Assembly (NCBI GenBank): GCA_020061125.1
Contig: JAGUYV010000341.1
Span: 1-17,582, forward strand
Direction of reading: 5' to 3'
Source of the DNA: a bacterium
Lineage (GTDB): Bacteria; UBP15; UBA6099; DSWB01
Length of the DNA stretch: 17,582 nucleotides
A program made the position numbers and the translations under genes. The notes below the pieces were generated by a model that made no database searches, had not been told where the DNA came from, and was given only the letters and a program-made list of their open reading frames with translations. Shown here piece by piece: positions 910 through 11,678 of the stretch. Position 1 is the stretch's first letter. The number at the start of each line of letters is the position of its first letter.

Positions 910-3348
910 TCACTCTATTGTCAATTCACCCGACAGCCGGATATCCTCGGACGAACTGCCCGCGAAAATTTTGAACAAGCCCGGCTCCACCACCTGTTCC
1001 ATGTCCATGTTGAACAGGGACAGATCTTCCGGTGTGAGGGTGAATTCCAGTGTCTGCGACGCACCTGGCGCAAGTGAGATCCGCTTGAATCCTCGCAGGC
1101 GCTTTTCGTATGTGACCACGCTCGCGGTCACATCGCTGATGTAAAGCTGCGCGACCTCGTCGCCCTCGCGCGTGCCCGTGTTTTTCACGGTGAAGAAAAC
1201 CTTGACGCTGTCCCGGGGGCCGGCCTTTCCGGGCGTAATGTTCAATCCGCTGTACTCGAATGTCGTGTAGCTCAATCCGTGGCCGAACGGATACAGGGCG
1301 CCGTTCACCCTTGTGGTGAACCGCTCGGGCCAGTTCACGGGCTGGTCGAGCTGCGAACTTGTCTTGTGCGGGAAATTGTAGGGGAGCTGCCCCACGGAAC
1401 GGGGGAAGGTTACGGGGAGCTTGCCGCCGGGGTTGATGTCTCCGAAAATGGCTTCGGCGACGGCCTGGCCCGCGAACTCGCTCGGGAACCACGCTTCAAT
1501 CACCGCCGGAACAAACTTGTCTATCCAGTTGATGGTCATGGCCCGTCCGTTGATTAACACTACGACCATGGGCTTTTTTGTACCGTATAGCTGCTGCACC
1601 AGGTCGTTCTGGTTTCCGGGCAGATCCAGGGAGGTGCGAGACTTGGACTCGCCGACCGTGTCCACATTGTCTCCGACCACGGCGATGATCAGATCCGCGT
1701 CCCTCGCCATGTCCACGGCTTTCTGGATTTTCAGCCGCTGTTCCTTGGCGGGCTTTTTGTAGTACAGCTCATTTTCCGGCCAGTTGCTGTCGTAATGATC
1801 GCAACCCTGCGCGTATTTGACCTCCACGGAATCGCCGAGCAGGTTCCTGACCCCTTCAAGAACGGTGATCACATGGATTTCGGAAGGGCCGTAGCGGCTG
1901 ATCATGGCGTTCTCTTCGTTGGCGTTTGGGCCGGTGACCAGCACGGTTTTAATCTTTGTTCTATCCACCGGAAGCAGGCCCGTGTTTTTGAGCAGAACCA
2001 GGGATTCGCGCGACGCGCGCAAAGAAAGCCTGTCGAATTCCTCATTGCTGATCAGGGAATCCGCGGCGTCCGGATCCCGCACATAGGGGTTGTCGAAAAG
2101 TCCGATCCAGAACTTCACGCGCAGAATGTCGCGCACGCGGTCGTCAATCACGCTCATGGGGATGCGGCCCTCGGCCGCGAGTTCCCGCAACGGAATCACG
2201 AATGTCTCCGGCGGGATGAAATCCGTGTGCACATTCAGGCCCGCCATAACGGACAGGTATGTAGACTCCTTGAAATCTTGCGCGATGTGATGGCGGCCTT
2301 GAAGCCCGCCCACGGCCCATGAGTCCGACACCACATATCCCCGGAAATTCCATTCACCGCGCAGCAGGTCCGAGAGGAAATAGCGGCTTGCGGTGATGGG
2401 CACGGCGTCGTAGTCGTTGTAGGAACTCATGAGGCCCATGATGCCTGCCTTGGTCACGGCGGAGCGGAACGGCGCGATGAGAATCTCATGCACTTCGCGC
2501 GGCGTGGCGTGGGGGTCGGTGCGCACATTGCCGTCGCGCCCGCCCTTTGGCACGCTGTACACCGCGAAGTGTTTTCCCGTGGACACCACGCGCTGCTCCT
2601 GCAGTCCGCGCACCATCTGGTTGCCGAGCACGGACACATGATGCGGGTCTTCTCCGTAGCATTCCACCACGCGGCCCCAGCGCGGGTCCCGCGCCAGATC
2701 CAGAATGGGCGAATATATGTTTGTGTAGCCCAGCGCCCGCGCTTCGCGGCCCGTCACGCGCCCGATCTCATAAACCAGTTCCGGATCCCAAGTGCTGCCC
2801 TGTCCTATCTGCGCGGGGAACGAGGTTGCCTTTTTGTGGCAGAGGCCGTGGATGCCCTCGTTGGTGAAATCCGCGGGAATGCCTAGGCGCGTGTCCTCGA
2901 TGAAGAACCGCTGCACCTGGTTGATGGCGCGCGCGTGGCGCGACGGCGGCCAGGCGTACTCCGTAGCCGCCTGCGGATGATACGCCAGCCCGTTCAAATG
3001 CTCGTCTATGTTTCCGATCCCGTCCTTCCACAGCGCGGATTTCCATTTTTCGGTTGGCAGTTCGTCCTGCGCCACGCGGCCGTATCCGTACAGCGTCACC
3101 ATCTGCATGGTTTTTTCTTCGAGCGTCATCTGCGTCAACAAATTCTCGACACGGGCGTCAATGTCCGCGGCGGGATCCTCGTATGTGTCCATCCGCCCGT
3201 TCTTGTTCAAATCAATCCACGCGCCATGATACATGGAATTGTTTGCGGAGCCGGAAAGAAAAAGCTCCTGCGCGGCGCGCGCGCTTCCGAGACCTGTCAG
3301 CAACAGCGCGAGCGTGAGCAATGAAACCGTTTTGCGGAATCGAGTCAT
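910..3348 (-). CDS. Secreted glycoside hydrolase family 3 beta-glucosidase-like enzyme
   Basis: 812 residues from the chosen ATG at 3348. It is preceded by GGGGGGAAC at good spacing and begins with a signal peptide (MTRFRK, then a Leu-rich core ending SARAA). A longer reading to 3384 would put 12 residues ahead of the signal peptide and lacks a comparable site. The order is: an EF-hand-like loop DLNKNGRMDTYE (46-57); the GH3 (beta/alpha)8 domain with LDLARDPRWGR and the KHF motif (259-261); the nucleophile motif GYVVSDS (Asp342); the second domain with VGESKSRTSLDLPGNQ, where Glu567 is the likely acid/base; then the C-terminal Fn3-like domain with GDEVAQLYISD (729-739). All core elements are present and length is normal for BglX-like enzymes. 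Expected role: exo-hydrolysis of beta-linked glucosides or xylosides in the periplasm or outside the cell. Exact sugar specificity cannot be read from the sequence. It is divergent from the GH97 gene and probably co-regulated with it. Confidence 0.93.
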   Translation of the reverse strand: MTRFRKTVSLLTLALLLTGLGSARAAQELFLSGSANNSMYHGAWIDLNKNGRMDTYEDPAADIDARVENLLTQMTLEEKTMQMVTLYGYGRVAQDELPTEKWKSALWKDGIGNIDEHLNGLAYHPQAATEYAWPPSRHARAINQVQRFFIEDTRLGIPADFTNEGIHGLCHKKATSFPAQIGQGSTWDPELVYEIGRVTGREARALGYTNIYSPILDLARDPRWGRVVECYGEDPHHVSVLGNQMVRGLQEQRVVSTGKHFAVYSVPKGGRDGNVRTDPHATPREVHEILIAPFRSAVTKAGIMGLMSSYNDYDAVPITASRYFLSDLLRGEWNFRGYVVSDSWAVGGLQGRHHIAQDFKESTYLSVMAGLNVHTDFIPPETFVIPLRELAAEGRIPMSVIDDRVRDILRVKFWIGLFDNPYVRDPDAADSLISNEEFDRLSLRASRESLVLLKNTGLLPVDRTKIKTVLVTGPNANEENAMISRYGPSEIHVITVLEGVRNLLGDSVEVKYAQGCDHYDSNWPENELYYKKPAKEQRLKIQKAVDMARDADLIIAVVGDNVDTVGESKSRTSLDLPGNQNDLVQQLYGTKKPMVVVLINGRAMTINWIDKFVPAVIEAWFPSEFAGQAVAEAIFGDINPGGKLPVTFPRSVGQLPYNFPHKTSSQLDQPVNWPERFTTRVNGALYPFGHGLSYTTFEYSGLNITPGKAGPRDSVKVFFTVKNTGTREGDEVAQLYISDVTASVVTYEKRLRGFKRISLAPGASQTLEFTLTPEDLSLFNMDMEQVVEPGLFKIFAGSSSEDIRLSGELTIE

Positions 3349-3362
3349 GGCGTTCCCCCCTG

Positions 3363-3379
3363 CGCCGGATATGCCGGCG
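3363..3379 (-). other. Hairpin at the 5' end of the GH3 transcript
   Basis: CGCCGG and CCGGCG form a perfect 6-bp inverted repeat around 5 nt. Given the -10 box at 3385-3390, transcription should start near 3378, so the hairpin would sit at the very 5' end of the mRNA, just before the G-rich ribosome binding site. It could stabilise the message or be a protein site. Confidence 0.35.
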
Positions 3380-3384
3380 ACCAC

Positions 3385-3441: not shown

Positions 3442-3512
3442 GGATGCCAGTTCCGGCTCATAATCCGCCGGGACGGGAATCGGACAATCACGCACACGCC
3501 GGGAGAACCGCC

Positions 3513-5399
3513 ATGCGCAGAGTGTTTTTCACACTGGCCATCATCGCCGCGCTTGCGGCCGCGCGCGCTGCATGCGCCGCGCCGCTTCAGGAAACGGCTA
3601 TTCCGTTTTTCGAGGAATCAGACACGGGCGCGCTCGTGGGCGTGTCCGAAGACGGGCGGCTTTATTATTCCATAGACTGGGCGAACCAGGCCGCGATCCT
3701 GGAATCTCCCATTGGGGTGATCAGCGACGGGCATGATCTGGGCATGGGCGTGACGCTTGGCGAACCGTCGTTCACGCGCATTGATCAGACATTCCCTGTT
3801 CGCGGCCCGCACGCCACCGGAATGCACCACTGCAATGCAGCCGCCATTCCGGTCACGCACACCAAAACCGGTACGCAGTACACTGTCGAATTCCGCGTGT
3901 GCATGGACGGCGCGGCGTTCCGCATGGTGATCCCGGGAAAGGGCAAACGCCGCATCACGGGCGAATCCACGGCATTCACATTCCCGCCCGGCGTGACATT
4001 CTGGCGTCAGACCGGGGTCGGCAATTACGAGGACGAATACAAGAGTGAAACCGCCATGGTCCCGGATACGCGGGTCGGCATGCCCCTGACTGTTGAATAC
4101 CCCAACGGGTGGACCGGCGCGGTTACCGAGAGCGCGGTCACTGGCTACAGCGGCATGACGCTCAAGGCGCTGGAAGGAAACAGATTTCAAGCCGAGTTCC
4201 TGGATGATCCCATGGGATGGATCGCCGCCGGAGATGTCACGACACCCTGGCGCGTGTTCCTGCTGTCCCGGGATCTCAACGGGCTTGTGAACGCGGACCT
4301 GGTCTGGGCGCTGGCCCCGCCGCCCGCGGACGAGGTTCTGGCCGCGGACTGGATCAAACCCGGCCGCTGCCTGTGGTCATGGCTCAACGGAGGCCGCTCC
4401 AGGGTCAAGCCGGACGAAATGCGCATGTATGTGGATGCGGCTTCGCACCTGGGTTACGAATTCGTGCTCGTGGACGACGGCTGGGAGGATCCGCCGCCGG
4501 TGTGGCGCAATCAGAACAAAGGCGCGGGGTGGTCCACTCCGGAGAAATCCGACATGCAGCACATGAAGGAGCTTGTGGAATACGCGCGGGAGCGCGGCGT
4601 GGGCATCTGGGTGTGGAAGCATTTCGAACTCATCAACGATCCGCAATACCGCCGGAAATACTTCGCTGATCTGCACGGCATCGGGGTCGTTGGCGTGAAA
4701 GTGGACTTCATGGATTCGGAATCCGTGCAGCGCCTGCAATTCTACGACGACACGCTCCGGGACGCGTTTGATCACCAATTAATGATTAACTTCCACGGGG
4801 CTAATAAACCCGCGGGCGAATCCCGGCGCTGGCCCAATGAAATGTCGCGCGAAGGCATCCGGGGGCTTGAAAATGTGTTCATGCCCGAGACTCATGTCAC
4901 GGCTCTGCCCTTCACGCGCCTGCTCGCGGGTCACGCCGATTACACGCCCATGCATTTCAAGCGCGCGTTCATGAGCAACACGAGCTGGCCGTTCCAGATC
5001 GCCTCGGCCGTGATCTTCGCGTCGCCGGTCACCTTCTACGCCGCATATCCGCCGGACATGCTGGCGAACCCCGCGCGCGAGATTCTCGAAAAGCTGCCTG
5101 TGGTGTTCGATGAAACCATTGTGCTGCCGCAGAGCCGCATCGGCGGGCTGGCAGCATTTGCGCGCCGTTCGGGCCGCGTGTGGCACATCGCCGTAATGAG
5201 CGCGGGGGCGTCGCGCAAGCTCGATATTGATCTGTCGTTTCTCGGCCCCGGAGAATATTCCGTTACGGCCGCGCTGGACGACCCGCGCGATCCCGTGTCT
5301 CTCAAAATCGCACGCACCACAGTGACCGCTGCGGACACATTGCCCGTGCGCTTGCGCACCTTCGGCGGGTTCGCCGCCGTGATCGAGCCTGTCAAATAA
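3513..5399 (+). CDS. Secreted glycoside hydrolase family 97 enzyme, retaining type (alpha-galactosidase or related)
   Basis: 628 residues from ATG 3513, chosen because it follows GGGAG at 7-nt spacing and opens a signal peptide (MRRVFFTLAIIAALAAARA). The open frame extends to 3444, but those 23 residues are hydrophilic and lie ahead of the signal. The order fits GH97: an N-terminal beta-sandwich (about 40-265), a (beta/alpha)8 barrel starting at WSWLNGGRSR (288-297) with YEFVLVDDGWED, then GVGIWVWKHFE and GVKVDFMDSE, and a short C-terminal beta domain (from about 535). In characterised retaining GH97 enzymes the nucleophile is an Asp; Asp398 in VKVDF is the likely equivalent and Glu447 in MSREGIRGLE the likely acid/base. 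This mapping is my inference from motif position. Expected role: release of alpha-linked galactose or glucose from oligosaccharides in the periplasm or outside the cell, paired with the divergent GH3 enzyme. Confidence 0.9.
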   Translation: MRRVFFTLAIIAALAAARAACAAPLQETAIPFFEESDTGALVGVSEDGRLYYSIDWANQAAILESPIGVISDGHDLGMGVTLGEPSFTRIDQTFPVRGPHATGMHHCNAAAIPVTHTKTGTQYTVEFRVCMDGAAFRMVIPGKGKRRITGESTAFTFPPGVTFWRQTGVGNYEDEYKSETAMVPDTRVGMPLTVEYPNGWTGAVTESAVTGYSGMTLKALEGNRFQAEFLDDPMGWIAAGDVTTPWRVFLLSRDLNGLVNADLVWALAPPPADEVLAADWIKPGRCLWSWLNGGRSRVKPDEMRMYVDAASHLGYEFVLVDDGWEDPPPVWRNQNKGAGWSTPEKSDMQHMKELVEYARERGVGIWVWKHFELINDPQYRRKYFADLHGIGVVGVKVDFMDSESVQRLQFYDDTLRDAFDHQLMINFHGANKPAGESRRWPNEMSREGIRGLENVFMPETHVTALPFTRLLAGHADYTPMHFKRAFMSNTSWPFQIASAVIFASPVTFYAAYPPDMLANPAREILEKLPVVFDETIVLPQSRIGGLAAFARRSGRVWHIAVMSAGASRKLDIDLSFLGPGEYSVTAALDDPRDPVSLKIARTTVTAADTLPVRLRTFGGFAAVIEPVK

Positions 5400-5468: not shown

Positions 5469-8400
5469 TCAGTTCGCCAGGAGCAGGCTGCAAGCCGCTC
5501 GCGTGCGCAGCAGATACCCGGTCCAGGGCTGGAGCGCCGCATCCCGGGACAACTTCACATATTCGTCGCCCGTATATTCATACAGCGCGCCGTCTGTGAG
5601 ACCCAGCTGCACGGCTCCGGACAGGGGCAATGCCTGGCCGCCGCATTCGAGGGTGATGTTGTCCGCCCAATCCAGCGGCGATTCAAAGGGATTGCCGATC
5701 ATGTTCCAGCCGTTGTGCAGGGGCACGCTCACGACGCGATCCTGGGGCAGGGCGGGGCCGGTGATGTCAATCTGCGTGTCGCGTTCCACAAACACCCAGT
5801 AGCCCAGGCCCGCCTGAATGTCGGCGTCCGCGCCTGTGTAAAACACGCGGTCGTGGTACTGGAACACCTGGAGCAGGGGCAGGTCGTCACCGAGCTGTTC
5901 GAGCGCGCCGGTGATTTCGGGATCAAGCGGCACGCTGATGAGACGCCATCCGGGTGACAGGGTGTGCGTGCGCGTCACGGTCTGCATTTCCAGAAGCGCC
6001 ACGACCTGGATGCGGAACCGCGCCTCGGACACGACACCAGGGGCCGCTGTGTAGGAATATGAGCTTTGAAGGGCCATGTCCACGGCCGCGCCGGTCTGCG
6101 TATCGATCAGGGTAAAGGAATATCGCGCGGACGGAAGCGCGGCGGAGTCCCATGTGAGGGTCACGGTTTCACCGGCTTCGGAGGTCTCGACCACGAAATC
6201 CCACGACTGGGCGCTGCCCTGTGCGCGGGCCGGGGCGCGCATGTCCGCGGCATATCGTCCGGAACGGTCCGCCCACTGGTCCTGCGGGAAGTACAGGGCC
6301 GTGTATTTCCGGCCGGGCGTGCGCGGAGGCTCGGCCGCATCCTGCGGGTCGAATGCCGCATCCGCGGCGTCCCCGGCGCCGAAATAGTTGTCCAGATCCG
6401 CGGACGCGGGTGCAACAGCGGATATTCTGACCAAGTAATCCGTGGCGTTGCGCACGCGGCGAGCCAGCATCACAGTGTCCGCGACAGCGTCGGGATCAAA
6501 TGAAAGGGTCACATCTTTGTATGCGAGGATATTGTAGCCAGTTCCCGGAACGAGCTGCGAGGACATGGTGTTCATGACCCAGGATCCGCTCGAATTGTCG
6601 TAGCTGTAAATTGTGTTGCTTATCAGAGCCATGCTCACGGCCTGGAGAAGCGTGTAAGCGGTTCCCTGATAAATGACTTGCACATCGTTCCAGTCATAGG
6701 CGCGGTTGTATGGCGAGCCGAACTGGTTCCAGCCGGTTTTCAGTTCGATGGCGTATGGTTCGGTGGTGTCGGCAAGCTCACCCGTGTACGAGTAGGAGAG
6801 TTCGCTGTAGTAACTCTGAATCCAGAATCCCTGGCCCGCGGAGAGCGTGTCCGGGTACACATACTGGAGCAGGAATTCCTGTGATTGGGCCTCGGGATCC
6901 CACTGGTAAACCTTGTAGTCCGTTGTGGAGGACTGGAACATGGCCGTGGGCTGGGGCGCGTCCGGTTCCACGGGCACGGAGAGCAGAACCCACTCCGACG
7001 GCGGGATGGTTCCCGTGACTTTGATTTTGTTGCGCACGAATACATCAACCGTGGCCGTGGCGTAATAGCCTCCGGTGTTGCGAGCGGCCAGGTGCAGCGT
7101 GTAGTAGCCGCGCATGTCCTGCGTGTCCCACTGGCCCAGGGTGCCGCTGGCGACTTCGGATGTTCCGGATGCAATGAGCGTGAGCGTTGCGGGTCTGGAT
7201 CGCGGGGAATAATACAGGGACCAGGACGCCAGAGCCGGGTCCAGAACGGTTCCGGTGACGGTGATGCTGCCCGTGATTTCGCTGTCGTGCGCGGGCGATA
7301 TGATGGCCACGGTGGGATAAGTGGCCACATTTACGGTCACGGCGTTGCTTGTGACTCCGGCGCAGGATGCGGTGATGCTCGTGTCGCCCATGGCCACGGC
7401 GGTTACCTGGCCCGTGAGCTGGCCCACGGTTGCGGCGGCCGTGTTGCCGGATGTCCACGCCACGGTTGCTGTGCAGTCGCAGGAAGCCTGGCCCGAGCAG
7501 TAGGGACTCGGGGCGCTGTAGGTGCATACTGCGGTGAAGGGCAGGGTGGCGCCGGGCAATATCAGGGTTCCGCCCGAGGGCGAGATGGTGATGGCGGTGA
7601 GGCGCGGAGGATTCACGCCCGCGTTGTTGGCGTACATGATGGAATATTCGTTGGCGTTGCCGGTGTATGCTTTATACCAGAGGTGCAGGGCGCCGTTCAG
7701 TGTGACCAGTGAGCTTAACGCGGCGATGGCCGCATCGTGTTCAGTCCCCACATCCAGAATGCTGCCTTTGGTGAGCGGTCCGGGATACTTGTTCCAGGCC
7801 AGGCCGTCCGCGCTGGCCGCATAGCCCAGGCGGTATTTTGTTCCGTCGAAGCCTGAATATATCATTTTGTAGGCATTGTTTTCGCGGTAGATGTTCGGGT
7901 GCGTGGCGCGGATCTCATCGAACGAGCCAGCCGCGCCCATGGACACGAGGCTGCCCGAGGCCTGCGGGCCGTTGTGTCTGGTCCAGTTCACGCCGTCCGG
8001 GCTGGTGGCGTATCCGATGCGGAATTCATAAGTGAACACGACGGTGTTGACTTCGATGCCCGTGTACCACATTTTGTACATGCCGTCTTCATAAACCACC
8101 CAGGGGCCGTAAACCGAAAATTCGTCGAAGGCATCCGCGGTCCATCCGAGAACCGCTCCGCCGTCCGCGGAGCCGGGAACGCGTTCCCAATTGATGCCGT
8201 CGTTGGACCGCGCCAGGCCGATGCGCCACGAGTTCGGGTTGTCAATCCGCGCCCCGGTGTACCACATGTAATACTTGAAACTGGCCGTGGGCGGGTTTTG
8301 CATTACAAATCCCACGCTCACTGCCTTGGAGTCAAAAGCGTTCGGGTCCGAAGACGGCTTCATCACGCCGCCCTCGGTAAGGCCGCCCTGCACCCGCGCC

Positions 8401-11400
8401 CAGTTACCTCCGTCCTTGCTCACCGCATAGCCGATCTGGTCGTTGCCCGCGCTGTCCCGGCCCGTGTACCACATGCGGAACACGCCGCCGTCATAAATCA
8501 CATGCGGATCCATCACGCCCACGGCGTCGAAACCGGTTCCATCCCCATCGAGCACCGGATTTCCTTCGTATTTGGAGAGCGTGGGCAGAACCGAAGGCGC
8601 GGCCGCAAGTTGCACCGTGTTGGTGTCTTCGTTGCCTGCGGAATCCCTCGCGCGCACCACGAAATAGTACATCGTGTCGTTGGTGAGACCGGTAATCTGC
8701 GCTGTTGTGGAAGTTGTCGTGGTCAGGGGAGTGGAGAAGGTTTGTGCGCCGCTGGTAGTGCTTGCATAAATCCTGTACGAGACGGGGGTGGAGTTTTGCA
8801 GATCGTTGGCCGCGTTCCAGGACAGGGTCACGCACCCGCCGCCGCAGCCCGCCGCGGACTGCACACCGTCGAACAGGGGCGGATTGGTGTCCGGTCCGCT
8901 CACAAGGAACATGTCCTCCGCGGACCATGGCGACAGGGCGAAGCCCGTGTTGTCTATTGCGCGCACGGACCAGAAATACACGCCCGTGTCCAGCGTGGCA
9001 TGGAAGCTGGCCGTGGCCCCGGCGTTACCCGGATAGCCGGAAACCGCCCCGGAAACAATGTCGTTGCGGCCGGAGAGCGTGCCGATGCGCACCTGATATC
9101 CAATGTTGCCGGCCGGTGTGTGATCGTCCGCGGAAGCGGTCCATTGCAAAGTGAATGCGCCGGGATCCCCGTCAGGCTCGGCGGAAATGACGGGGGCCGA
9201 AGGCGGGCTGTTGAGCGGATTCATTTTGTTGCGATAAACGCGGTTCTGGCCGTTGCCCGCCGCATAGTAATCCAGATCGCCGTCGCCGTCGTAGTCGAAG
9301 AACGCCGCGGATTGCACGGCCTCGCTCTCGGGCGAATTCCACAGCAGGGTGAAGCCGTTGGCGCCGTCTCCCGTGTAGACGGCGTCCGGTTCATTGTAAT
9401 TGACAAAAAGCAAATCTGCGTTCCCGTCGCCGTCCGCGTCTCCCCACTGCACGCCCGTGGTGGCGTCAGACGCGGCGAGTGTGGCGGTCAGTGTGAACGC
9501 GCCGCCGCCGTCGTTGCGGTACACGCGGTTGGGCTGTCCATAGTTGCCTGCGGCGATGTCGGGATCGCCGTCGGAATCCGGATAGCCCCAGGCCGCGCTT
9601 GTGGTGTTGTCCGCTTCGGCCGAGGACCAGACCAGTGTGAACGCGCCGCCGCCATCATTACGGTACACGCGGTTGGCCTGTGCGTAGTTGCCCGCGAAAA
9701 TGTCCGGGTCCCCGTCCATATCGTAGTCCGCGAGCGCCAGGGCGCGGGTGTCGTCGTTTTCCGTTGAGGACCAGATCAGTGAGAATGCGCCGCTGCCGTC
9801 GTTGCGGTACACGCGGTTGGATTGCCCGCTGTTGCCGGCGAACAAATCCAGATCCCCATCGCGGTCAAAATCGCCCCAGGCCACGGACCGGGTGCTGTCC
9901 GTTTCGGGCGACGACCAGACCGCTGCCCACGAGCCGCCATCGTTGCGGTACACGCGATTGGGCTGCCCGGTGTTGCCCGCTGCGAAGTCCAGGTCTCCGT
10001 CGCCGTCGAAATCTCCCCAGGCCGCGGATGCGGTGTTGTCCGATTCTGTGGATGACCACGCCAGGGACAGGCTGCCGCCGCTGTTGCGGTACACGCGGAT
10101 GGGCTGTCCGTTGTTTGCAACGACGATATCATGATCACCATCTCCATCGAAGTCGCCGTAGGCCACGGATGCAGAATCGTCGCTTTCGGAACTGACCGCC
10201 GCGGATTGGAACGGCTGCGCCGTGAGAGTGAAAGAGTCCTCGGGCGTGAATGCCGACATCTTGAAAGAGGTATCAATGGCCGCCACGGACCAGTAATAGG
10301 TTCCGAGAGGGAGGTGGATGAGCCTGGATGTGGCCTGTCCCGCGTTGCCGGGATAAGAGGCAAGGGCCGCGGACATGACCTGGCTGCCGCCGGGTGTGGT
10401 TCCAATGCGGAGCTGGTGTCCAATGAGCGCGGTTGGGGTGTGGTCGTCCGCGGGCGCGTTCCACATCAGCGTGATCCAGCCCGGTTCGTCGTCGAGCTTG
10501 TTCGAGAGGACTGGCGCGGGCGGTGCGCTGTTCGCGGGGTTGAGCGTGTTCTGGTAGATTCGGTTCACCTGGCCCGAGCCAGCGGTTAGAATGTCCAGAT
10601 CCCCGTCACCGTCGTAATCGCCGAAAGCGGCGTCGAAAGTTTCCGCGGTTTCATCGGATGACCAGTACAGCGAGAACGCGCCTCCTGTGTTCCGGTAAAT
10701 GCGATCCGGTTTTGCGAAGTAGTTCCCGAAGAGCAGATCCAGATCGCCGTCGCCATCTGCATCGCCCCAGGCCGCGGAATTTGTGTCGTCGGTTTCCGGG
10801 GTTGACCACGCCAGAGTAAAGCCCCCGGCGCCGTTGTTTCTATAGACGCGGTTGGCTTTGGTGTGCGTGTTCGCCAGTGCGAAGTCCGGATACCCGTCGC
10901 CGTCGTAGTCTCCCCATGCAACGCCCACTGTGGAATCCACCTGCGCGGGCGCCCAGGCAACCGTGAACGCGCCGTTCCCGTCGTTCCGGTAGACGCGGGA
11001 CACTCCATAATTGCCGAACAGAAGATCCAGATCCCCGTCGCGGTCATAATCGGCCCAGGCCGCGGCTCTGGTGTTGTCGGTTTCCGTGGAACTCCAGACC
11101 AGGGAAAAGCTGCCGTTGCCGTCGTTGCGGTAGACCCTGTTGGCCTGCAGGTCATTGCCTGCGGCGATGTCTAAATCCCCGTCGCCGTCATAATCGCCCC
11201 AAGTGGCCTGGTAGGTTTTGTCTGCTTCCGGCGAGGACCAGACAAGCGTGAATGCTCCGCCGCCGTCGTTGCGGTACACGCGGTTCTGGGTATTCCAGTT
11301 TCCCAGAAGAAGATCCAGGTCTGCGTCGCCGTCATAGTCGCCCCATTCCACGCTCTGTGTGGGCGCGGTGGATGGAGAACTCCAGGCCAGTGTGAAAGCG

Positions 11401-11678
11401 CCGCCGCCATCGTTGCGGTACACGCGCGTGACCTGTCCGTAGTTGCCTGCTGCAAAGTCCAGATCGCCGTCGCCGTCGTAATCTCCCCAAACCACGGACG
11501 AGGTATTGTCGGTCTGTGTTGTGGTCCACACAGATACGAATTCACCCGCAGACAAAGCCGGGCCAGTCGCAAAAATGGTGAGAAGCACAACCGCGAACAT
11601 GAAAACGGCCGAGCGCTCGAGTAAAGTCTGAATTGGGATGGTTCTGGTTGCGCGTTTCAAGACATGCTCCAGCTTCAT
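5469..11678 (-). CDS. Giant secreted multi-propeller protein (FG-GAP/VCBS, Fn3, five-blade glycosidase-like propeller, Ig-like, paired C-terminal repeats)
   Basis: 2069 residues. Signal/anchor at 1-44 (hydrophobic core FMFAVVLLTIFATGPALSA). Domains: 47-377, seven FG-GAP/VCBS repeats with DYDGDGDLD calcium-binding loops and RVYRN; 384-485, Fn3-like; 489-817, seven more repeats; 823-927, Fn3-like; 930-1028, Fn3; 1035-1352, five repeats such as YKMWYTG and IGYATSPDGVNW, as in GH43/GH32/GH130 five-blade propellers; 1358-1452, Big2-like with five Cys; 1454-1548, Ig-like; then W/G repeats at 1560-1632, 1643-1727, 1901-1972 and 1981-2066, with a separate beta-rich segment at 1735-1893. An in-frame TAA 15 nt upstream bars an earlier start. 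The ATG lacks a ribosome binding site; a TTG at 11660 has GGAG 6 nt ahead and may be the true start. Probable role: calcium-dependent binding of glycans or surfaces outside the cell; enzymatic activity of the five-blade part is unproven. No known sorting signal is seen at the C terminus. Confidence 0.92.
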   Translation of the reverse strand: MKLEHVLKRATRTIPIQTLLERSAVFMFAVVLLTIFATGPALSAGEFVSVWTTTQTDNTSSVVWGDYDGDGDLDFAAGNYGQVTRVYRNDGGGAFTLAWSSPSTAPTQSVEWGDYDGDADLDLLLGNWNTQNRVYRNDGGGAFTLVWSSPEADKTYQATWGDYDGDGDLDIAAGNDLQANRVYRNDGNGSFSLVWSSTETDNTRAAAWADYDRDGDLDLLFGNYGVSRVYRNDGNGAFTVAWAPAQVDSTVGVAWGDYDGDGYPDFALANTHTKANRVYRNNGAGGFTLAWSTPETDDTNSAAWGDADGDGDLDLLFGNYFAKPDRIYRNTGGAFSLYWSSDETAETFDAAFGDYDGDGDLDILTAGSGQVNRIYQNTLNPANSAPPAPVLSNKLDDEPGWITLMWNAPADDHTPTALIGHQLRIGTTPGGSQVMSAALASYPGNAGQATSRLIHLPLGTYYWSVAAIDTSFKMSAFTPEDSFTLTAQPFQSAAVSSESDDSASVAYGDFDGDGDHDIVVANNGQPIRVYRNSGGSLSLAWSSTESDNTASAAWGDFDGDGDLDFAAGNTGQPNRVYRNDGGSWAAVWSSPETDSTRSVAWGDFDRDGDLDLFAGNSGQSNRVYRNDGSGAFSLIWSSTENDDTRALALADYDMDGDPDIFAGNYAQANRVYRNDGGGAFTLVWSSAEADNTTSAAWGYPDSDGDPDIAAGNYGQPNRVYRNDGGGAFTLTATLAASDATTGVQWGDADGDGNADLLFVNYNEPDAVYTGDGANGFTLLWNSPESEAVQSAAFFDYDGDGDLDYYAAGNGQNRVYRNKMNPLNSPPSAPVISAEPDGDPGAFTLQWTASADDHTPAGNIGYQVRIGTLSGRNDIVSGAVSGYPGNAGATASFHATLDTGVYFWSVRAIDNTGFALSPWSAEDMFLVSGPDTNPPLFDGVQSAAGCGGGCVTLSWNAANDLQNSTPVSYRIYASTTSGAQTFSTPLTTTTSTTAQITGLTNDTMYYFVVRARDSAGNEDTNTVQLAAAPSVLPTLSKYEGNPVLDGDGTGFDAVGVMDPHVIYDGGVFRMWYTGRDSAGNDQIGYAVSKDGGNWARVQGGLTEGGVMKPSSDPNAFDSKAVSVGFVMQNPPTASFKYYMWYTGARIDNPNSWRIGLARSNDGINWERVPGSADGGAVLGWTADAFDEFSVYGPWVVYEDGMYKMWYTGIEVNTVVFTYEFRIGYATSPDGVNWTRHNGPQASGSLVSMGAAGSFDEIRATHPNIYRENNAYKMIYSGFDGTKYRLGYAASADGLAWNKYPGPLTKGSILDVGTEHDAAIAALSSLVTLNGALHLWYKAYTGNANEYSIMYANNAGVNPPRLTAITISPSGGTLILPGATLPFTAVCTYSAPSPYCSGQASCDCTATVAWTSGNTAAATVGQLTGQVTAVAMGDTSITASCAGVTSNAVTVNVATYPTVAIISPAHDSEITGSITVTGTVLDPALASWSLYYSPRSRPATLTLIASGTSEVASGTLGQWDTQDMRGYYTLHLAARNTGGYYATATVDVFVRNKIKVTGTIPPSEWVLLSVPVEPDAPQPTAMFQSSTTDYKVYQWDPEAQSQEFLLQYVYPDTLSAGQGFWIQSYYSELSYSYTGELADTTEPYAIELKTGWNQFGSPYNRAYDWNDVQVIYQGTAYTLLQAVSMALISNTIYSYDNSSGSWVMNTMSSQLVPGTGYNILAYKDVTLSFDPDAVADTVMLARRVRNATDYLVRISAVAPASADLDNYFGAGDAADAAFDPQDAAEPPRTPGRKYTALYFPQDQWADRSGRYAADMRAPARAQGSAQSWDFVVETSEAGETVTLTWDSAALPSARYSFTLIDTQTGAAVDMALQSSYSYTAAPGVVSEARFRIQVVALLEMQTVTRTHTLSPGWRLISVPLDPEITGALEQLGDDLPLLQVFQYHDRVFYTGADADIQAGLGYWVFVERDTQIDITGPALPQDRVVSVPLHNGWNMIGNPFESPLDWADNITLECGGQALPLSGAVQLGLTDGALYEYTGDEYVKLSRDAALQPWTGYLLRTRAACSLLLAN
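9228..10214 (-). repeat. Second block of seven FG-GAP/VCBS-coding repeats
   Basis: Seven imperfect tandem units of roughly 120-150 bp inside the giant gene, each encoding one blade with a D-x-D-x-D-G-D-x-D loop. The minus-strand codons for RVYRND recur nearly unchanged. The sixth unit (DADGDGNADLLFVN, then AVYTG) and fifth (YPDSDGDPD) are the most diverged. Confidence 0.85.
10548..11540 (-). repeat. First block of seven FG-GAP/VCBS-coding repeats
   Basis: Seven imperfect tandem units of roughly 120-150 bp encoding blades 1-7 (residues 47-377). The segment before the first calcium loop (FVSVWTTTQTDNTSS) resembles the strand that ends each other blade, as expected for a ring closed by the N-terminal strand. 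Confidence 0.85.

Follow-up and report, generated by a model that had tools for sequence, protein, structure and literature searches.

The minus strand of the window, the whole 17,582-nucleotide stretch of DNA analyzed here, encodes a large, probably exported protein of 2069 aa whose architecture comprises a pair of seven-bladed calcium propellers together with a five-bladed propeller of the sugar-enzyme type. We consider it reasonably probable, at roughly 60%, that this is a non-catalytic glycan-binding protein of the surface that is exported and probably surface-attached. What appears to be new, within a limited open-access literature search, is the joining of a GH-type five-blade propeller to FG-GAP propellers in an association that recurs as fused or coupled genes. 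That search found neither the combination nor its recurrence as coupled genes; going by their titles and abstracts, the papers that mention FG-GAP together with five-bladed propellers are not about a fusion of this kind.

Gene layout and the seven-bladed propellers

The multi-propeller gene is read as a single minus-strand frame with an ATG start, and opposite-strand ORFs over the region (e.g. 7899-9767, plus strand) were set aside since every profile match falls on the minus strand. The span noted in an earlier sequence-only reading, 7623-11540, corresponds to residues 47-1352. The chain extends 717 residues beyond it, through Big_2/Big_7-like domains and then a C-terminal module of ~520 aa. 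The features of the gene are as follows.

5469..11678 (-): whole gene for the exported multi-propeller protein, 2069 aa; ORF 11678-5469 with Pfam matches along the chain
11544..11678 (-): probable Sec signal peptide, residues 1-45; by inspection a basic n-region, a hydrophobic core and ALSA/GE
10539..11540 (-): propeller 1, seven FG-GAP/VCBS blades, residues 47-380; 7 loops, 28 predicted strands, Z 35.7 to CRTAC1 and ~31 to integrin alpha
10212..10538 (-): Ig/Fn3-like linker of unit 1, residues 381-489; recurs after seven-blade blocks in order-mates, low-confidence model
9228..10211 (-): propeller 2, seven FG-GAP/VCBS blades, residues 490-817; 7 loops, ~54-55% identity to propeller 1
8892..9227 (-): Ig/Fn3-like linker of unit 2, residues 818-929; order-mates match the same linker profile
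8592..8891 (-): fibronectin type III domain, residues 930-1029; Pfam fn3 at 950-1018, E 3.2e-6
7623..8588 (-): predicted five-blade GH130/GH43-type propeller without the GH130 catalytic residues, residues 1031-1352; profiles, predicted fold and alignment
7029..7622 (-): Big_2-like and Big_7-like domains, residues 1353-1550; Pfam
5472..7028 (-): C-terminal module with GWxLxSxP / GWNxxGNP repeats, residues 1551-2069; 13 matches in its own genome

The signal peptide probably exports the protein, and inspection revealed no C-terminal hydrophobic helix in the 2069-aa chain. The sequence-only reading had described three propellers joined by Fn3 domains. The 7 + 7 + 5 layout stands, but only the third linker (950-1018) passes the Pfam fn3 profile, the two unit linkers being Ig/Fn3-like by pattern. 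Further along the chain, Pfam places Big_2 at residues 1361-1437 (E 1.1e-4; 22.5 bits, slightly below the 22.8 cut-off) and a weak Big_7 match from residue 1455 (E 0.011).

The earlier count of exactly seven FG-GAP/VCBS repeats in each block is borne out by both loops and profiles. The first residues of the calcium loops are 65, 113, 161, 209, 256, 305 and 353 in block 1 and 508, 555, 602, 650, 698, 746 and 794 in block 2, with a period of 47-49 residues in both, and FG-GAP_3 (PF13517) matches 14 stretches in Pfam with an E value of 1.3e-100 (330 bits against a curated cut-off of 26.9). Some of the 14 loops are degenerate, for example those at 113 and 698. On the profile evidence, namely the Pfam E values for FG-GAP_3 and Glyco_hydro_130, a chance origin of the repeat counts is excluded. 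The DxDxDG loops suggest that calcium stabilizes the seven-blade propellers.

An AlphaFold2 model of unit 1 (residues 46-489) contains 28 propeller strands with a pLDDT of ~77-96 in the propeller; its linker is poorly modelled, at low confidence. As modelled, propeller 1 closes into seven blades of four strands each, the last of which takes in the N-terminal strand, and it matches CRTAC1 with a Z of 35.7 and integrin alpha chains with a Z of ~31 over ~313 residues, in agreement with the seven-blade integrin-like fold that had been proposed. This likeness of fold to integrin alpha and CRTAC1 shows no function. Propeller 2 has the same seven loops at ~54-55% identity to propeller 1. In an ungapped comparison of units 1 and 2, mean identity is 50% for corresponding and 47% for non-corresponding blades; the units may have originated by blade-by-blade amplification or by whole-unit duplication.

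The description of this architecture as unusual holds only in part, since Pereira and Lupas 2021 (PMC8023676) describe VCBS proteins that combine several propellers with Ig domains, chains in order-mates reach eight propeller units, and fusions of FG-GAP and five-blade propellers exist in CPR bacteria. VCBS/FG-GAP proteins (PF13517, PF01839; PMC8023676) resemble the present protein in that they have a signal sequence, more than one propeller in the chain, accompanying Ig-like domains and a DxDxDG blade loop, but here a GH130-type five-blade propeller is present in the same chain together with a lineage-specific C-terminal module. Chouhan 2011 (PMC3192720) reports bacterial tandem seven-blade propellers with 14 signatures. 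The bacterial integrin-type propellers described there share the seven blades and sometimes the tandem arrangement; the five-blade partner, the blades of only ~48 residues and the probable signal peptide set the present protein apart from them. The integrin alpha chain, which also has a beta-subunit partner, leg domains and a transmembrane helix, is alike in its seven-blade FG-GAP propeller fold.

The five-bladed propeller

Five WYTG-type strands, the number given in the sequence-only reading, are located at residues 1069, 1138, 1203, 1272 and 1333, with a DGxxW turn after each of the first four. The profile search against GH families that had been proposed for this part returned Glyco_hydro_130 in Pfam (E 2.6e-10), and the best NCBIfam match was a beta-1,2-mannobiose phosphorylase model, whose cut-off of 450 lies far above the 64.9 bits scored here. 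AlphaFold2 modelling of residues 926-1358, utilizing an alignment of 65 sequences, gave a pLDDT of >90 across most of the propeller. The highest Z score, 34.3, is to the N-terminal propeller of BT_0996 (5mt2, 5mui; rmsd 2.8, 303 residues), yet at a very low sequence identity of 18%. The BT_0996 propeller is presumably a GH137 member. GH130 enzymes overall match with Z scores of 31-33 in an N-to-N register, for example Teth514_1788 (9gph; Z 32.7, rmsd 1.9, 270 residues, N-to-N). As modelled, residues 1031-1352 are a GH130/GH137-type five-blade propeller, and the GH-like fold anticipated from the repeats was recovered.

GH130 mannoside phosphorylases and mannosidases (Teth514_1788, BT3780) share the five-blade fold, but their catalytic Glu-Asp and phosphate-binding Arg residues are absent here. 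When Teth514_1788 (9fj8) was added to the alignment, the Glu-Asp of its EDPR motif aligned to Ser1121-Val1122 and its blade-3 Arg-Arg to Thr-Gly. By our own reading of these motifs, EDPR contains the equivalent of the Glu141-Asp142 pair of BT3780, and the blade-3 Arg-Arg residues are the phosphate binders in GH130 phosphorylases. E141 and D142 of BT3780 are essential, as D142N and E141Q abolish activity (PMC4599007).

Across the 65 five-blade relatives, all columns that are more than half acidic are blade-symmetric (WD start, DGxxW turn and hairpin turn), and no asymmetric acid is conserved. Residues flanking the pore Pro vary freely, giving a hypervariable pore versus fixed scaffold residues. 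The pore of GH43 and GH32 enzymes contains two Asp and one Glu. D1057 is the sole acidic residue at the strand-A pore positions, and its position is Asp in only 4 of the 65 relatives. By comparison of motifs rather than of coordinates, it would occupy a pore site that is Asp in GH43/GH32 enzymes too, with D1057-P1058 resembling their blade-1 Asp-Pro. Because the GH130 catalytic and phosphate residues are replaced and no asymmetric acid is conserved, catalysis by the five-blade domain appears unlikely, and the hydrolysis suggested in the sequence-only reading is not upheld. In profile libraries, WYTG five-blade proteins of this kind come out as GH130, GH32 or GH43, and many automatic 'glycosyl hydrolase' labels on them may be wrong given that the 65 relatives conserve no asymmetric pore acid.

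An exported-looking GH3 gene (910-3384, minus strand) and a divergent GH97 gene (3444-5399, plus strand) adjoin the propeller gene. These neighbors could hint at an enzymatic role for the propeller protein; no operon is evident, since the GH97 gene, which separates the GH3 gene from the propeller gene, is encoded on the opposite strand.

Related chains in the order and in other phyla

The genome that carries the window is 78.8% complete, and the set searched for its relatives comprised six order-mates and no closer relatives. One order-mate (G001; L161, contig 151) encodes a 3842-aa protein with eight units of seven blades plus linker, amounting to 56 FG-GAP blades. In a chain from L162, three such units precede Big and, last, the C-terminal module that the present protein also has; this chain lacks the five-blade domain. 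The number of blades per unit is seven in 8/8 units of the 3842-aa protein and in 6/6 in L162, and further chains encoded by G001 contain three and four units. The five-blade domain has no match in the six order-mates and occurs once in its own genome. The 2069-aa protein would best be viewed as a lineage-typical scaffold to which the Fn3 and five-blade domains were added.

The C-terminal module (5472-7028) matches 13 places in its own genome, has no Pfam match, and sits at the extreme C-terminus in carriers read full length. Because of this constant position, it is possibly a sorting or anchoring domain of the lineage. A separate protein of 2019 aa (L172, G000 contig 320) consists of ~14 tandem Fn3-like domains that are related to the Fn3 of the 2069-aa protein.

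Elsewhere, too, these two kinds of propeller repeatedly occur together, either fused or adjacent. FG-GAP and five-blade propellers are fused in one secreted chain in L068 (Dojkabacteria) and in L038 and L056 (CPR3), which differ from the present protein in having one seven-blade propeller instead of two and longer integrin-style blades. By reading, seven FG-GAP loops can be counted in L068, which also has five WYTG strands, and by inspection its C-terminus is a hydrophobic membrane segment followed by a basic tail; both L038 and L056 run off the ends of their contigs. Additionally, all nine five-blade genes belonging to one subtype lie directly upstream of a same-strand FG-GAP gene (9/9; L052, L088, L080 and L214-L217) in Armatimonadota and one bin labelled Planctomycetota (genomes G098, G099, G100, G176 and G237). 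Stop and start codons overlap by four bases (ATGA or GTGA) in eight of these nine pairs, and L080 has a short gap. Contig 80 of G098 contains four consecutive pairs, and with four of the nine pairs being tandem copies at one locus the count reduces to six separate loci. G099 also contains a weak five-blade match (E 2e-9) that falls outside the subtype and was left out of the nine. FG-GAP genes of the paired type are also found without a five-blade gene. A quick tree weakly separated the domains of the window, the fused chains and the paired genes; independent origins of the association were dropped as an explanation since a joint grouping was not rejected (p-AU 0.77).

Proposed function and alternatives

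We favor a model in which the signal peptide would export the 2069-aa protein and its two calcium-stabilized seven-blade propellers, spaced by Ig/Fn3-like domains, would make up a rigid array, while the C-terminal module, as its constant C-terminal place suggests, would anchor or sort the chain. The five-blade propeller, which by alignment has lost the GH130 catalytic residues, would bind a glycan or comparable ligand in its variable pore and leave it uncleaved. Comparison with order-mates suggests that this domain was added to a lineage scaffold of repeated seven-blade-plus-linker, Big and C-terminal modules. Binding of a glycan or other ligand is a plausible inference for the protein, and VCBS-like propellers are typically tied to carbohydrate recognition (PMC9218822).

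It could be argued instead that the five-blade part works as a glycoside hydrolase or as a phosphorylase, with the seven-blade propellers serving it as carbohydrate-binding modules. Its top structural matches are indeed enzymes (BT_0996 and GH130 phosphorylases), the GH130 profile matches, GH3 and GH97 genes lie alongside, and D1057-P1058 is like the GH43/GH32 blade-1 Asp-Pro. We nevertheless regard an active enzyme as distinctly improbable, given the change of the GH130 Glu-Asp to Ser-Val and of Arg-Arg to Thr-Gly, the presence of Asp at position 1057 in just 4/65 relatives with no conserved asymmetric acid, and an NCBIfam score of 64.9 versus a cut-off of 450.

A structural surface-layer or matrix protein, with the propellers acting as rigid bricks that have no specific ligand, is an unlikely reading to which we still give some weight, as order-mate chains stack up to 56 blades, the repeats are highly similar and the C-terminal module is widely shared. 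However, the pairing of FG-GAP and five-blade propellers recurs in distant phyla and pore positions vary freely against fixed scaffold residues, which suggests ligand diversification rather than pure packing. It is very improbable that the protein acts in an adhesin- or receptor-like manner by binding proteins or another cell's surface through its integrin-like propellers, with the five-blade domain as a spacer. The strong fold matches of propeller 1 are integrin alpha and CRTAC1 and order-mate FG-GAP units occur without a five-blade domain, but fold likeness shows no function and VCBS-like propellers are mostly tied to carbohydrates (PMC9218822).

A tentative proposal that we hold at less than even odds takes in the other genomes. 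Under this proposal, an FG-GAP seven-blade propeller and a non-catalytic WYTG five-blade propeller would constitute a widespread, previously undescribed two-part surface recognition module. Its parts would be split between translationally coupled genes in Armatimonadota and a single Planctomycetota bin, and joined in one chain in CPR3, Dojkabacteria and, as 7 + 7 + 5, in the present protein. The five-blade pore would be its diversifying ligand site. The recurrent coupling to FG-GAP propellers suggests a function that experiments could test, namely recognition of glycans or surfaces by a two-part system in little-known phyla.

A single-sequence query returned no FG-GAP relatives in viral_contigs, and an alignment query returned six weak loci. 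The putative viral contig IMGVR_UViG_3300037498_000121 contains two adjoining giant ORFs of ~2900 and ~2800 aa (L106 and L107), each with ~20-25 WYTG repeats that probably form several tandem five-blade propellers.
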